From Pseudomonadota bacterium (GTDB lineage: Bacteria > Desulfobacterota > Desulfobacteria > Desulfobacterales > Desulfolunaceae): DNA of 64,000 nt. Positions within the stretch are counted from its first letter, which is position 1; every line of letters begins with the position of its first letter. Below the pieces are notes generated by a model, which was not told the origin of the DNA, ran no database searches, and worked only from the letters and a program-made list of their open reading frames with translations. Of the stretch, positions 50,542 through 58,685 are shown piece after piece. Position numbers and translations under genes: made by a program. The stretch is taken from contig JAHIRD010000006.1 in NCBI GenBank assembly GCA_018818835.1, positions 1-64,000 of the forward strand, given 5' to 3'.

Positions 50542-51780
50542 TTATTTATAAGCGTTCATAATGGCTTTGACTGCGGCGATTTTCCGTTTGGCCATCTGTT
50601 TTTCCTCGGGGCTCTGTGCGCAATCAAGGGCCTGATTGAGTTTGCAGGAAATGGCATTGAAATCAGGCGATCCAGGCTGTTTTTTCAAATCGTCTGCCTG
50701 TCCCATATAGTAAGAGAAAAGAAGGGGGAGGACCGCTTCTTTTGTATAAACATCTTTAATCTCTGCAGGTGCCAGCTTCCCCGGGATTTTGGCGATCAAG
50801 GTTTTCCCCATTGGGGCAAAGGACCCTTGGTACACCATCGTGGCACCCTGTTTTGACGAAACATAGTAATTGGATGTGTTTCTGATGCTTAAAAGGGTCA
50901 GGACAAACACAAGAATAGCAATGCCTGCGGCAATGGGGACCATATTGATGGACGGTCTGGGAGCCTTGAGCATTTCAACTCTGTTGACAGATTCTGAAGG
51001 GGATGCCTGAGCCTCTGTTGTTTCTGCTTCAGCTTTTGCCTTAGCCTCTGCTTCAGCCTTTGCCTTAGCTTCTGCTTCAGCCTTTGCCTTAGCTTCTGCT
51101 TCAGCCTTTGCCTTAGCTTCTGCTTCAGCCTTTGCCTTAGCTTCTGCTTCAGCCTTTGCCTTAGCTTCTGCTTCAGCCTTTGCCTTAGCCTCTGCTTCAG
51201 CTTTTGCCTTAGCCTCTGCTTCAGCTTTTGCCTTAGCTTCTGCTTCAGCTTTTGCCTTAGCCTCTGCTTCAGCTTTTGCCTTAGCCTCTGCTTCGGCTTT
51301 TGCCTTAGCCTCTGCTTCGGCTTTTGCTTTAGCTTCTGCTTCGGCTTTTGCCTTAGCCTCTGCTTCGGCTTTTGCTTTAGCTTCTGCTTCGGCTTTTGCC
51401 TTAGCCTCTGCTTCGGCTTTTGCTTTAGCCTCTGCTTCGGCTTTTGCCTTAGCCTCTGCTTCGGCTTTTGCTTTAGCCTCTGCTTCGGCTTTTGCTTTAG
51501 CCTCTGCTTCGGCTTTTGCTTTAGCTTCTGCTTCGGCTTTTGCCTTAGCCTCTGCTTCGGCTTTTGCCTTAGCTTCTGCTTCGGCTTTTGCTTTAGCTTC
51601 TGCTTCAGCCTTTGCCTTAGCTTCTGCCTCTTTTTTGATCATGGCTTCTTTTTTGGCAGAATCATCTGTTTGCTTTGCTGGAGTGCTTTTACTTGCTGCA
51701 GGTTTTTGTGCAGTTTTTTTTGCAGCTGATTTTTTGGGGGTTGTTTCCTTTTTCGTTGATTTCTTCTTATCTTTGGCCAT
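50542..51780 (-). CDS. membrane protein with about 25 AEAEAKAK repeats
   Basis: 412 aa. Residues 1-45 are Lys/Ala/Thr-rich ([20 protein letters not shown]), like histone-H1-type tails. Residues about 50-255 are perfect 8-residue repeats AEAEAKAK. A linker and one membrane helix ([19 protein letters not shown], about 282-302) follow. The C-terminal domain has about 110 residues ([19 protein letters not shown], two Cys, helical end). With Lys-rich N-terminus inside, the C-terminal domain should face the periplasm. E and K spaced four apart favour a long single alpha-helix. The repeat unit is also that of the EAK16 self-assembling peptide. Family unknown; TolA-like only in style. Confidence 0.85.
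51023..51628 (-). repeat. 24-bp minisatellite coding AEAEAKAK
   Basis: About 25 copies of a 24-bp unit with only synonymous differences (AGCC/GGCT and CCTTA/CTTTA variants). Identical variants cluster in blocks: AGCC-type at about 51050-51190, GGCT-type in the middle. This indicates recent copy-number change by slippage or recombination while the protein stays in frame. Confidence 0.9.
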
Positions 51781-53917: not shown

Positions 53918-54727
53918 TCAAAGACCTTTTTCAAGCCTTCTTTTGGAAAATATGTCATCGGCAAGGTTCTGATTGAATGCAACCTGGCTGATGGTGATGT
54001 CTGTTTTGTGAACAACGTCATCACCGCGTTTTTTGATTACCTTGATGCTCAGGCTGACCCATATCCCTTCAATTTTCTGAAGATCATCAAAATCAATTAG
54101 CTTGATATAATCTCCTTCGGTTGTCCAGGCTTTAATCCGGGTGACCATATAATTGTCCTGCCTGATAGCATAAATGGATTTTTTGTACCCTGTTTCATCC
54201 ATGACTTTTTCGGAACGGGGCGTGGATTCAATCAACCAACACTGGGCTCCTTTAAGATCAAGTTCCTTGAGGAGTTTGAAATCGTAGTCCGGCAACTCAC
54301 GGGAACTCATATCCGAATAGTTCATGTCCGAACCCATGAAACTTCCATTCTTGTCATTGGATGCAATGCGCTTGGATTTTCCCAGGGCTGGCAGGTAAAG
54401 GAACTGGTCGTCATCTTTTGTGGGGTCATCATAATCAAGGGTGAGAAATCCTGTGTTTTTGATACTGGGCGGATCCACGATGAACATGATGGTATGGGTG
54501 TCCTTGCCATGGTCCTTGGAAAAAATTTTGAAATATTTTTTTCTCTCATCGTTGTTCTTATCGATGAGGACCATAAGCATGTCATTGGTGCGATTGTCGC
54601 CATTATCCCTGTCGTCGACCTTCTGCATGATCTCACGGGCTTTGGGATCATCGGCAAAAGAGAAGGCAGGGGTAATCAGGGTCATGGTGATCATGAGGAT
54701 GAAAAGGGTGGCCAGATGTTTTTGCAT
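53918..54727 (-). CDS. outer-membrane lipoprotein-sorting (LolA-like) protein
   Basis: 269 aa with signal peptide (LATLFILMITMTLITPAFSFA). The mature protein follows the LolA-like group often encoded with RND exporters: DPKAREIMQKVDDRDNGDN, IMFIVDPPSIKNTGFL, FLYLPALGKSKRI, DYDFKLLKEL. No RND gene is adjacent. TTGGAGACC lies upstream of the ATG. It has its own promoter and stands downstream of the GEMM riboswitch-terminator unit. Confidence 0.85.
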   Translation of the reverse strand: MQKHLATLFILMITMTLITPAFSFADDPKAREIMQKVDDRDNGDNRTNDMLMVLIDKNNDERKKYFKIFSKDHGKDTHTIMFIVDPPSIKNTGFLTLDYDDPTKDDDQFLYLPALGKSKRIASNDKNGSFMGSDMNYSDMSSRELPDYDFKLLKELDLKGAQCWLIESTPRSEKVMDETGYKKSIYAIRQDNYMVTRIKAWTTEGDYIKLIDFDDLQKIEGIWVSLSIKVIKKRGDDVVHKTDITISQVAFNQNLADDIFSKRRLEKGL

Positions 54728-54847: not shown

Positions 54848-54876
54848 GAATTATGGTGGATGGGGGAAAATGTCAA
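54848..54876 (-). promoter_or_regulatory. sigma-70-type promoter of the LolA-like gene
   Basis: On the minus strand, TTGACA (54876-54871), a 17-base spacer, and TAATTC (54853-54848), leaving a leader of about 115 nt. It lies downstream of the riboswitch terminator, so the gene may be transcribed independently of the riboswitch. Confidence 0.55.
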
Positions 54877-54967
54877 GTTCAACCTGGGTTTAGGGAATCT
54901 ATGAGGAGTTAATTTTGTGTTTGAAAATGTCTGTGTACAGCCTTAATAAAGATTTTATGTATTCATC

Positions 54968-55004
54968 AAAAAAAACCGGGTTCCCAAGGGGGATGGGAAC
55001 CCGG
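54968..55004 (-). terminator. intrinsic terminator of the GEMM riboswitch unit
   Basis: On the minus strand CCGGGTTCCC, a nine-base loop, and GGGAACCCGG form a perfect 10-bp stem. Eight U follow (54975-54968). It begins eight bases after the last P1 base of the aptamer, so aptamer folding could affect it. Confidence 0.92.
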
Positions 55005-55012
55005 ATAATCGG

Positions 55013-55245
55013 CAAGCTAAGGCAGCCCTGCTACCATGTCTCTATACACTTTCCAGGATTTACAAACTATTCTTTCGAGATCATTATTTTTTTTACGTTG
55101 ATGTTAGATGAATCTGCCTTGTTTATTAACAAAACGATTCGTTTAAAATCGATCTCTACTTAAATTAAACCCGAACGTTAATGTTATAAAGGGTTAGGCC
55201 AGTGGCTTTGCGTCCCACTCTTTCGGGTGGTTTGCTTTTAGCTTG
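55013..55245 (-). ncRNA. GEMM-I cyclic-dinucleotide riboswitch with large P3 insertion, GEMM-Ib-like (A20)
   Basis: Read on the minus strand. P1 5' strand CAAGCTAA (55245-55238), then AAGCAAACC. The P2 hairpin is closed by CCAC..GTGG with a CGAAAG tetraloop, followed by GGGACGCAAAGCC (A47 kept) and ACTGGCCTAA. After about 145 inserted bases come GAGACATGG, TAGCAGGGCTGCC (C92 kept) and the P1 3' strand TTAGCTTG (55020-55013), a perfect 8-bp match. P3 can form as CCA-c-TG with CATGG. Standard aptamers are about 85-90 nt; this spans 233. The base before GCAAACC, position 20 in Vc2 numbering, is A. A20 is the mark of GEMM-Ib riboswitches selective for 3',3'-cGAMP in Geobacter. Promoter and terminator abut it. 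Confidence 0.85.
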
Positions 55246-55250
55246 ATTCC

Positions 55251-55279
55251 ATTATAATGGGCTTCTTTGGGGAAATCAA
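55251..55279 (-). promoter_or_regulatory. sigma-70 promoter of the GEMM riboswitch
   Basis: On the minus strand TTGATT (55279-55274), a 17-base spacer and a perfect TATAAT (55256-55251). Transcription would start six to eight bases further on, right at the P1 stem of the aptamer. It is located after the GT2 stop codon, so the riboswitch has its own transcript. Confidence 0.8.
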
Positions 55280-55347: not shown

Positions 55348-56082
55348 TTATGTATTTGCACGAAAATATAAAGATAATCCGGGAATGAGCCGTTTGGTGA
55401 CACAGAGGCTGAACAGATGCGAAAACTTATAGAGTCCTTCATGGGTGAGATTGAAACGGCTTTTTCGCAAATCATGGCAGCCCACAGGAATCTCCATAAT
55501 ACGTTTTTCATCGTGATAGGCACTGAAAAGAATCAGAACCACATAAAAGGTATGGCTGTCCAAAAAAGGGAGATAGGGGAGAATGGCCGATTTTCGGTAA
55601 GCTTTGGCTGCAATGGAATAGTCACTGTATGAAATCCCCAGCAGAACTTCTGCAGAGTAGATAAAGATTCGGCTGGCGGCTTTCCGGAGGAGTGATCGCT
55701 TCTGGTTCCCGTTTTTCTTTGACCCCACCACCACATGGACACGGGACAGGAGATGATAGGCTGTTTCAATAAATGAAAGGTCAATGGAAAGATCCATATC
55801 CACCGTGATGATACGGTCGAAACTGGCGATTTTTACACCCAGAGCAAAGGCACGGCCAACGCCTTTCCGGGGAAGGTGGAAAAATCGGACATAAGGTCGT
55901 TTTTTTTCAAGTGATTCAAGGATAGCGCACGTACGGTCCGTTGATCCGTTGCTTCCGATGATGATTTCAAAGGGAAGACCCAGGGTTTCAAGGTGGGTTG
56001 CCAGGATTTGGATATGGCTTTCTATAAGGGATTCTTCATTGAAAACCGGAATAAAGATAGATAAGCCGGGTATCTGGGTCAT
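55348..56082 (-). CDS. GT2-family glycosyltransferase
   Basis: 244 aa from ATG 56082 (overlaps the upstream gene by four bases, ATGA). GT-A fold: GLSIFIPVFNEESLIESHI, IIIGSNGSTDRT, GVGRAFALGVKIA, and the metal-binding DMDLSID. It resembles polyprenyl-phosphate sugar transferases. With the upstream multi-membrane protein it probably supplies a lipid-linked sugar for a cell-surface glycan. Confidence 0.88.
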   Translation of the reverse strand: MTQIPGLSIFIPVFNEESLIESHIQILATHLETLGLPFEIIIGSNGSTDRTCAILESLEKKRPYVRFFHLPRKGVGRAFALGVKIASFDRIITVDMDLSIDLSFIETAYHLLSRVHVVVGSKKNGNQKRSLLRKAASRIFIYSAEVLLGISYSDYSIAAKAYRKSAILPYLPFLDSHTFYVVLILFSAYHDEKRIMEIPVGCHDLRKSRFNLTHEGLYKFSHLFSLCVTKRLIPGLSLYFRANT

Positions 56083-58685
56083 GGTTGTCTGCTTTCGTGT
56101 AAACGGGCCAGGGCTTCCGGAGCCCAAGGGCTCTGAAAATAATCCCGGGCAAGTTGTCTGAAATACGTCATGGCCATGGTTTCATCTCCGGATTTTTGAC
56201 AGCATAATCCCATGTGGAAGAGGGCTTCGGCAGATCGTCTGCTTTCTGGGTAGTCCAGGACAAGGTCTTTAAAAACTCTGAGACTTTGATCCCATTCCCC
56301 GACATTAAAATAACACAAGGCAAGATGAAAGCACGCGTCATCGGAAATCATGGTTTCAGGATACCGTGTGACCACATCCTTAAACATGGATTTTGCCTGG
56401 GTATAATCCTTTTCGGAAAAAAGTTTCAGGGCTTTGATGTACTGGGGAACAGGATAGGACGGCGGCAGAAAAAAAAGAGCCGTAAGTAGCATAACAAGAC
56501 TTGATGACCCCACGACCAGAACGCAAATCCAGCCGGGGGCTTGGGCCGAATCAGGCCTCAAGAGGTCAGTTTTTCGTCCTGCTGTGAAAAATAAAAGGAT
56601 GGGTATCAGGCAAAGGCTCAGGATGGAGACGATCAGGCCCGTATGCTCAATCATGGAGGCTTCATAATAAAGACGAACCGTGGATGATGTGGGATAAACC
56701 AGCATGAAGCCGGGTGATGCCAGGTAGATTTTATCCGCGCCTCTAACGTGCCAGTTGGGATGATAAGACACCTTGACAAGTAAGGGCTGGCCAGGGGTGG
56801 CCTGATCAATAAGGATCTCATCCTGGGATAAGCGGGCCGAGATTTTTTTCAGTGCCTTGTCCAGGGCAATGGGCCGGAGATGCTCGATTTTGGTAGGGTC
56901 AATGGGTGTCATACGCTCCAGATCTATGGGATCAGGATGGGTGGTATACACCAGGGGAATGGACAGGTTGCCTTTTCTGAACCAGGTGAAGAACAGACGT
57001 CTGAAATCTCCTTGGACCAAAAGGGCAGGTTTGAATGGCAGAGCCTCCACATACCCGCTCCCTATATCCGCAAGATCGAACACCATAAAGGGGCCGGATT
57101 GATATCCAAGGGTATAGGCTGGGTTTTCAAGGGCTGCCTTCTGGGTTCCGGGCTCTGTCAGTATAATCTGTCCCACATGAAAAAGGCGAAGATGTTGAAT
57201 CGCACGATTGAGATCCAGGCCAGGGTAGACATAATCCGCAAAGGGCGTGGAGGGATGGGCCGATATTTCCGCCTGGATGTAATAAATATAGGGAGACAGA
57301 AGGCTTGCCTGGATGTATAGGCCTTCTAAGGTGCTTCTGCCGCTGAAGAAGGGCAAGGACTCAAAGGCCCTTATACTGCCTGCCTTTTCATAGAGGGGGC
57401 TGTGCTCATAGACGACCCTTGGATCGTTCTCAGAGCCCTTCAGATAGCTTGTTACAGCAAGAAAATCTCCATAAAGGGGCATGTTCTCGAACCCTTTGAA
57501 ATTGTGCATGGACCAGTCCCTGATATGCACTTCCCGGCTATGAATCCAGGCAAAGGTCGAGAACAGAAAAAAGACCATAAAACAGGCCGATGACGTTTTT
57601 TCCCATGGCAGATGTTTGAACACAAAGGCCCCGGAAATGATCAGGAAAAATTGAAAAAAAGGCAGGAAACGCACATCCACAAGATTAAAACGGTAGCCCA
57701 GGGCATAGAGCAAAAGACCCGTTAGGGCCAGATAAGCAACAAAAAAGGGGGCGGCATCCAAGGGTTTTTGCCTGTCCCCAGGGCTGAGACGTCGGATAAA
57801 AATGGATATGACCGGGGCGGCAAGGGACAAAAGCATAAAGGGCCGGATCAGGACTGGGAAAACCTGGTCCAGGACCTGGTTCAGGTCCGAAAAAATCCAG
57901 ATAAATCCGAATTTTGTGGTCAAGGGCATGTGTGCCATAAGGGGAAAGAGCCAGAAGGCCATGAGGCCTATGGCCAAACCGTGGATCAGGATCAGATCAA
58001 TGAGGTGTCTGATGAACCGTCCGGGTGTAAGCAAAAAGTACAGGGATCCGAATCCTGCAAAAAGAAGGGCGTAGCCATGGCTGAACCCCGTGAGGCATAA
58101 AAGCAGGGCGCATGATACATAACGGGGTTTTTCATGGAAATGATTGTACAAGACGCCAAGAAACAGGACAGCCAGGGAAAAGCCCAGGGCATAACAAAAG
58201 GTGCCGGAAAGGGTGGACAGGATATTGCCGCCCCAGATGGACTGGCCTTCCATGAAAAGAAACGCAAGGCTTGAAATTGCTCCGGCCAGGCAGACCGCCT
58301 TGGTTTGTTTCAGTTGATGGAAAAAGAACCATGTGGCCCATGGCAGGGTGAGAACGCCTATAATCGTAACCAGCTTGAATGCGATGGTCAGAGGTAGGAA
58401 CCATGAGAGTCCTGCCATGATAAGGAAGGGCAGGAAAAAATAATTTTGAAGCATGGAAAAACCACCCAGATTTCCCATGCACCATCCGGTCAGGTTTCCT
58501 TTGGGCAGAAGCTGGTGTTTGAGATACCATGCCGTGAAAACATGGGATGCCGTGTCTCCTCCGGTTTCGGTGCTGTTCAAAAATACAAGGGAGGGGGTGA
58601 GAAAATAAAGAGTGAACCCGGATATCATGACGAGAACGATGCAATCAAAAAGGCGGTTGGTCCATGTGGCTGGGGTCGTGGCCAT
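56079..58685 (-). CDS. large membrane protein, GT-C/PTPS-related type, with C-terminal TPRs
   Basis: 868 aa. At least ten membrane helices span residues 15-400. The first extracytoplasmic loop has NSTETGGDTASHVFTAWYLKH, an acidic motif like the catalytic loop of GT-C enzymes. A large soluble domain (about 400-690) is followed by two more helices and three TPR-like repeats (ALKLFSEKDYTQAKSMFKDVV; ALCYFNVGEWDQSLRVFKDLV). It resembles the 6-pyruvoyl-tetrahydropterin-synthase-related membrane family, whose role may be glycan transfer. Coupled to the GT2 gene. Confidence 0.78.
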   Translation of the reverse strand: MATTPATWTNRLFDCIVLVMISGFTLYFLTPSLVFLNSTETGGDTASHVFTAWYLKHQLLPKGNLTGWCMGNLGGFSMLQNYFFLPFLIMAGLSWFLPLTIAFKLVTIIGVLTLPWATWFFFHQLKQTKAVCLAGAISSLAFLFMEGQSIWGGNILSTLSGTFCYALGFSLAVLFLGVLYNHFHEKPRYVSCALLLCLTGFSHGYALLFAGFGSLYFLLTPGRFIRHLIDLILIHGLAIGLMAFWLFPLMAHMPLTTKFGFIWIFSDLNQVLDQVFPVLIRPFMLLSLAAPVISIFIRRLSPGDRQKPLDAAPFFVAYLALTGLLLYALGYRFNLVDVRFLPFFQFFLIISGAFVFKHLPWEKTSSACFMVFFLFSTFAWIHSREVHIRDWSMHNFKGFENMPLYGDFLAVTSYLKGSENDPRVVYEHSPLYEKAGSIRAFESLPFFSGRSTLEGLYIQASLLSPYIYYIQAEISAHPSTPFADYVYPGLDLNRAIQHLRLFHVGQIILTEPGTQKAALENPAYTLGYQSGPFMVFDLADIGSGYVEALPFKPALLVQGDFRRLFFTWFRKGNLSIPLVYTTHPDPIDLERMTPIDPTKIEHLRPIALDKALKKISARLSQDEILIDQATPGQPLLVKVSYHPNWHVRGADKIYLASPGFMLVYPTSSTVRLYYEASMIEHTGLIVSILSLCLIPILLFFTAGRKTDLLRPDSAQAPGWICVLVVGSSSLVMLLTALFFLPPSYPVPQYIKALKLFSEKDYTQAKSMFKDVVTRYPETMISDDACFHLALCYFNVGEWDQSLRVFKDLVLDYPESRRSAEALFHMGLCCQKSGDETMAMTYFRQLARDYFQSPWAPEALARLHESRQP

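Follow-up and report, generated by a model that had tools for sequence, protein, structure and literature searches.

A c-di-GMP-I-class aptamer with a long P3 arm in a probably free-standing RNA of sulfate-reducing bacteria

The closest described counterpart of the RNA considered here is merRNA, a 445-nt non-coding RNA that contains a c-di-GMP riboswitch, is followed by no conserved ORF and has been proposed to serve as a reservoir; merRNA is reported to be massively expressed in the attack phase, and its authors report no conservation outside Bdellovibrio (PMC3627812). In the literature searched, subscription papers excepted, merRNA was the sole free-standing cyclic-dinucleotide aptamer RNA found described, and no description of the long-arm RNA presented below was found. 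Studies of cyclic-dinucleotide specificity are also relevant. In Geobacter, an A20G substitution is reported to convert a cGAMP-selective riboswitch to a c-di-GMP-selective one, and the Hypr signature is described as Ser348/GGDE[F/Y] in a GGDEF protein (PMC6456294). An A at position 20 is given as common in c-AMP-GMP-responsive variants in a review (PMC9481103).

The aptamer and its genomic setting

The window, meaning the whole stretch of 64,000 nucleotides that was analysed, carries the locus on its minus strand, and all window coordinates given below refer to features of that strand. Downstream of a family 2 glycosyltransferase gene (55348..56127) lies a sigma70-type promoter, TTGATT-17-TATAAT (55251..55279), which agrees with the consensus at 10 of 12 positions, occupies a register shared with relatives, and is predicted to start transcription at ~55244, the first base of P1. 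The 5′ half of the aptamer (55194..55245) comprises the 5′ strand of P1, an A at position 20 (55236), P2 with its GAAA tetraloop, the 5′ strand of P3, and the CCUAA receptor strand within P3. An AU-rich arm of ~155 nt follows (55039..55193), is predicted to form an irregular helix that prolongs P3, and has counterparts of similar length in relatives, which covary in one genus. The 3′ half of the aptamer (55013..55038), which falls within a match to RF03167, supplies the receptor partner strand, the 3′ strand of P3, a ligand-pairing C and the 3′ strand of P1, UUAGCUUG. The receptor partner strand is CAUGG, the usual strand in c-di-GMP-I aptamers being UAUGG.

An extended P1 can be formed by CAAGCUAA (55245-55238) and UUAGCUUG (55020-55013), and exactly eight bases, CCGATTAT, separate it from the stem of an intrinsic terminator, as the original prediction had claimed. 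With ligand bound, either this 8-bp P1 or a canonical short one may form. The terminator (CCGGGUUCCC...GGGAACCCGG-UUUUUUUU, 54968..55004) has a stem of 11 pairs (55004-54976), eight of them G-C, with an energy of -22 kcal/mol, followed by TTTTTTTT, which is eight T in the DNA and hence eight U in the RNA; it forms with P = 1.00 in the full-length fold and would leave an RNA of ~277 nt. Since the U-run ends at 54968 and the ATG of the LolA-like gene (53918..54727; PF17131, E 1.6e-49) lies at 54727, the gap of 240 bp originally given between terminator and gene is correct. This gene is regarded as a neighbour and is probably not the target of the RNA. The interval first proposed, 54848-55245, does contain the aptamer and terminator, but the RNA's own promoter lies just outside it, and the long P3 arm and A20 had both been overlooked. 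Elsewhere in the window, at 50542-51780, an open frame encodes an extended KAEAEA repeat and, after it, a C-terminal region free of repeats.

A promoter with the form TTGACA-N17-TAATTC had also been proposed for the LolA-like gene. A promoter-like site is indeed present, but TAATTC (54853-54848) matches the consensus at only two of six positions. A better reading, by consensus match only, is TTGACA (54876-54871)-N15-CATAAT (54855-54850), which spans 54850..54876 and matches at 11 of 12 positions with a short spacer, a score that was equalled in none of 200 mononucleotide shuffles of the interval. The presence of this site between terminator and gene would suit an arrangement in which the LolA-like gene has two promoters, namely a housekeeping promoter after the terminator and that of the RNA itself, from which weak read-through, tuned by ligand, would reach the gene. 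We give this arrangement only a slim chance, given the strength of the terminator (stem energy and U-run as above) and the fact that coupling to a LolA-like gene was not seen in any relative.

At the Rfam gathering threshold, a match to RF01051 was obtained at 55246-55162 (39.7 bits, E 0.00028; cut-off 35), the alignment of which misplaces the 3′ half of the aptamer onto arm sequence. The true 3′ half, CAUGGUAGCAGGGCUGCC, which includes the P1 strand, is located ~150 nt farther on and immediately precedes the terminator, indicating that P3 bears the ~155-nt arm. With permissive settings, RF03167 matches the whole aptamer (55245-55017, E 2e-11) with a skip of 152 nt within P3, its score of 52.4 bits, for the full length with the insertion, being below the cut-off of 59. 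By these matches the locus carries an aptamer of the c-di-GMP-I class (RF01051/RF03167). Within the P3 arm, neither a further known aptamer nor any other Rfam family scored above threshold.

Doublets and triplets of aptamers of this type are listed in a review (PMC9481103). The genome to which the window belongs (G000) contains tandem arrays of five (C122:8549-8972, L074) and four (C136:52378-52727, L073) c-di-GMP-I-type aptamers, both of which precede genes whose products carry a TAQAG motif, and six such aptamers are arranged in tandem in a relative (G016, C109:691-1207, L080). In most of the remaining aptamers of this genome (L001-L006, L008-L010 and L013, on contigs C122, C136 and C324), GGCAAACC...GACGC is replaced by GCCAAACC...GACGG, a difference that resembles a compensatory flip of a single core pair.

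Members in related genomes and neighbouring genes

When 40 related genomes were scanned with RF03167, two long forms came to light, in genomes G001 and G004. An exact pattern built on the A20 core, which is blind to members with G20, matched nine of the 389 genomes of the order, seven of them with the long arm and two with a short P3. Without the A20 requirement, matches were obtained in 10 of 389 genomes and in nine named records that by sequence are genomes found before, this second pattern having missed G001 and G216 because the length of their arms falls outside its range. The named records include Desulfobacteraceae and Desulfococcaceae assemblies, a Desulfococcus sp., a Deltaproteobacteria assembly and Desulfoluna limicola (NZ_AP024488). 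One further member (G229) emerged when 14 selected genomes were searched with BLAST, bringing the total to 13 genomes with the promoter-aptamer-arm RNA, from three families (f1, f34 and f59) of one order; members were recruited by exact sequence patterns, with a resulting bias toward conserved ones. The register of P1 varies across the set. Within the genus Desulfoluna (g3), BLAST detected the RNA in one of six genomes, with the controls found, which indicates a patchy distribution. Two models were also used, of which R1 cannot tell long-arm from ordinary aptamers, and R2 missed the known members G000, G001 and G299, such that its absences carry no meaning; absence from the other Desulfoluna genomes and a few others rests on BLAST. 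Spread by viruses was considered and rejected, as there were no matches to the long-arm RNA among viral contigs. Separately, two A20 aptamers with a short P3 (G344:C37, L085; G306:C66, L088) have a 3′ strand that almost abuts the U-run, and are apparently ordinary attenuators.

The promoter occupies a fixed position with respect to the aptamer. Among the 12 members known at the time of the analysis, the -35 and -10 boxes are spaced by 17 bp and the -10 box stops 14 nt short of position 20 in 11, the distance in the remaining RNA (L093) being 13 nt; agreement with the consensus at the 14-nt register averages 8.58/12, versus 3.59 +/- 0.59 at other registers, although the promoter of one member (L097) is weak at 6/12. 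This fixed register leads to a predicted start at P1. Similarly, a terminator lies 3′ of the aptamer in 12 of the 13 members, with a sequence that varies between families. The exception, L099, has no terminator and its aptamer runs directly into the AGGAGG-ATG of a gene for a cNMP-binding-domain protein (PF00027, E 2.1e-15); from this layout it is an ordinary cis leader. Full-length folding of 11 RNAs gave terminator probabilities of 0.96-1.00 in every case, these being equilibrium values, beyond the reach of which a kinetic switch would lie.

The genes that follow the RNA are diverse. The first downstream gene is LolA-like in the window, arginyl-tRNA synthetase-like in G001, kinase-like in L090, L096 and L097 (the synthetase-like and kinase-like labels being recognised from sequence only), cNMP-binding in L086, L087, L091 and L099, and short and unknown in L093; L094 stops before any listed downstream gene. 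A downstream gene is shared only inside genus g86, where it is the cNMP-binding one, and otherwise differs between families. In D. limicola no same-strand gene was found downstream, there being only opposite-strand genes for ~4.9 kb. The upstream glycosyltransferase gene is present in G001 also (L068), where the downstream neighbour differs from that in the window. Conversely, seven orthologues of the LolA-like gene (L046-L052, 49-53% identical) have no aptamer within flanks of 1.5 kb or less, and were rejected as aptamer hosts. These orthologues, together with the occurrence of the RNA before other genes elsewhere, speak against the original suggestion that a cyclic-dinucleotide-controlled promoter serves the LolA-like gene.

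Aptamers of the c-di-GMP-I class usually act in cis, and it could feasibly be that the RNA is an attenuator in which ligand binding shifts termination so as to control the downstream gene, whether LolA-like as in the window or cNMP-binding or histidine-kinase-like as in relatives. A precedent exists in the Cd1 riboswitch, whose aptamer and terminator are reported to be present together, in competition with an antiterminator (PMC9262584). In L099 the aptamer is itself a direct leader, and the best cis argument comes from within genus g86, in that the cNMP-binding gene lies downstream in four f59 genomes, in three of them beyond the terminator. However, in the 11 RNAs analysed the terminator begins 13-73 nt past the end of the aptamer with no overlap, in contrast to the ordinary attenuator of a relative (G110, L181), the terminator of which is built from the 3′ strand of the aptamer. 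Nor was a conserved antiterminator found in these 11 RNAs (pairing z from -2.18 to +1.44). Indeed, in nine of them pairing between the 5′ arm of the terminator and upstream RNA was within the shuffled range (z -0.98 to +1.44). Possible pairing of this 5′ arm with the P3 arm was seen in G177 and G216 (z -1.8 and -2.2) via an element containing CCGG, which is weak evidence for cis control because the element is self-complementary. Terminator sequences and downstream genes both vary between families, and D. limicola offers no gene to control. Considering both sides, control in cis seems improbable.

The varying neighbours, the lack of a gene in D. limicola, the LolA orthologues without an aptamer, the stable terminator and the lack of an antiterminator signal are best read as indicating a free-standing RNA. 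The original prediction of a free-standing short transcript is thereby well supported, with the fixed promoter register in 12 RNAs and the terminator in 12 of 13 adding to the case, and judged on these sequence features the locus very probably encodes such an RNA. The exceptions to the pattern of own promoter, own terminator and no conserved gene downstream are L099 and the gene shared in genus g86. Since the layout recurs beside different genes, the RNA probably acts away from its neighbouring gene.

The P3 arm, the candidate ligand and modes of action

The window RNA folds with a z of -4.2 at full length and -3.1 without the terminator; an f59 member folded singly (L087) has a z of -1.3, a stability that is unremarkable. 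Seven f59 sequences gave a structure of 77 pairs, of which 13 are changed on both sides, versus 4.1 in shuffles, the number of paired cells being inflated because these very sequences were used to derive the structure. None of 500 shuffles reached 13, and slid controls gave 3 to 5. Ten of the 13 double-sided changes are in the arm and three in the terminator, and on this covariation the arm forms a structure, at least in f59. The sequence of the f59 arm is conserved too, including unpaired stretches. In an alignment of 12 sequences covariation support was limited to the base of the arm, and f1, with three diverged sequences, is too small for covariation of the window-type arm, which modelling predicts to prolong P3. 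Past the base of P3 the f1 arm cannot be aligned with that of f59, and the function of the arm may therefore not be common to both. Two other proposals for the arm were rejected: a CsrA-type sponge, as the GGA motifs of the f59 arm are not retained in the window or G001 when judged by eye, and a coding insertion, as arm lengths in close relatives differ by single bases.

Position 20 of the aptamer contacts one base of the ligand. In the window it is the A at 55236, in the column that we take to be Vc2 position 20, and this residue predicts recognition of the cGAMP type as opposed to pure c-di-GMP recognition. GGDEF matches number 26 in the window genome; 24 of them are readable at the specificity site, and a single one of the 24 has Ser. 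The protein in question is a GAF-GGDEF protein with GGDEY (C21:111997-112467, L130) and is a candidate cGAMP synthase by signature, such that A20 and a putative cGAMP source occur in the same genome, as expected for GEMM-Ib. A DNA pattern for the Hypr signature matches 110 of the 389 genomes of the order. Seven members of the RNA set have A20 (the window and six of the 12 others) and six have G20; the signature is present in five of the seven A20 genomes, being absent from G004 and G317, versus none of the six G20 genomes. Fisher's test (two-sided) on the first 12 genomes gave p = 0.028, which is suggestive only since the genomes are related.

The reading we prefer is that of a free-standing cyclic-dinucleotide-binding RNA that acts in trans via a ligand-gated arm, with a probability of roughly 0.6. 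Transcription would start at P1 from the RNA's own promoter, the aptamer would fold with its long P3 arm, and the ligand-independent terminator would end an RNA of the predicted length, which would then accumulate. The RNA would bind a cyclic dinucleotide, being 3′,3′-cGAMP as judged from A20, and perhaps also c-di-GMP. Most likely, the ligand would lock the docking of P2 and P3 and so alter how the arm is presented or how stable it is, and the arm would serve as the effector surface for action in trans.

Alternatively, a free-standing RNA might store or buffer cyclic dinucleotide, the role suggested for merRNA in Bdellovibrio, with the arm being merely stabilising. The anatomy is shared, in that merRNA too is non-coding, contains a c-di-GMP-I aptamer and is followed by no conserved ORF (PMC3627812), and a terminator that is predicted always to form would suit such a role. 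However, conservation of the f59 arm, unpaired stretches included, goes beyond the needs of passive storage, and the sequence gives no sign of very high expression; storage is accordingly considered unlikely. With respect to the ligand-gated arm, a broader proposal, which is tentative and perhaps somewhat doubtful, is that these RNAs constitute a class of ligand-gated trans-acting RNAs, in which the aptamer would have moved from leaders, the conserved P3 arm would be the effector, and a one-base switch between c-di-GMP and cGAMP would track the presence of a cGAMP synthase.

Comparison with described systems

The RNA resembles several known systems in part. The Rfam families RF01051 and RF03167 share with it the core, the GAAA tetraloop and the P3 strands, whereas the window RNA has in addition the 155-nt P3 arm. 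As in the Bc1 c-di-GMP-I riboswitch of Bacillus thuringiensis, which is reported to have a terminator that forms at any ligand level, termination here is predicted to be independent of ligand; Bc1, unlike the present RNA, serves mcpE as its leader and carries two terminators (PMC11218506). The GEMM-Ib cGAMP riboswitches of Geobacter have in common with the window RNA the c-di-GMP-I fold, A20 and a GGDEF protein with the Hypr signature in the genome, but are described as cis leaders with cGAMP-responsive downstream genes, whereas the window RNA ends at a separate terminator (PMC6456294).

The likeness to merRNA of Bdellovibrio bacteriovorus is one of anatomy, as judged from the published description of merRNA: both are non-coding RNAs with a c-di-GMP riboswitch aptamer, no conserved downstream gene and a proposed role other than in cis. 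They differ in that merRNA is 445 nt long and belongs to Bdellovibrio, whereas the RNA described here is ~277 nt, occurs in sulfate reducers, has a covarying P3 arm, and has either A20 or G20. Its natural A20/G20 variation would allow the co-evolution of ligand specificity with enzyme repertoire to be tested. As a second free-standing family beside merRNA, found in three sulfate-reducer families and, within Desulfoluna, in a named strain, it would open trans-acting second-messenger RNAs to comparative and experimental tests.
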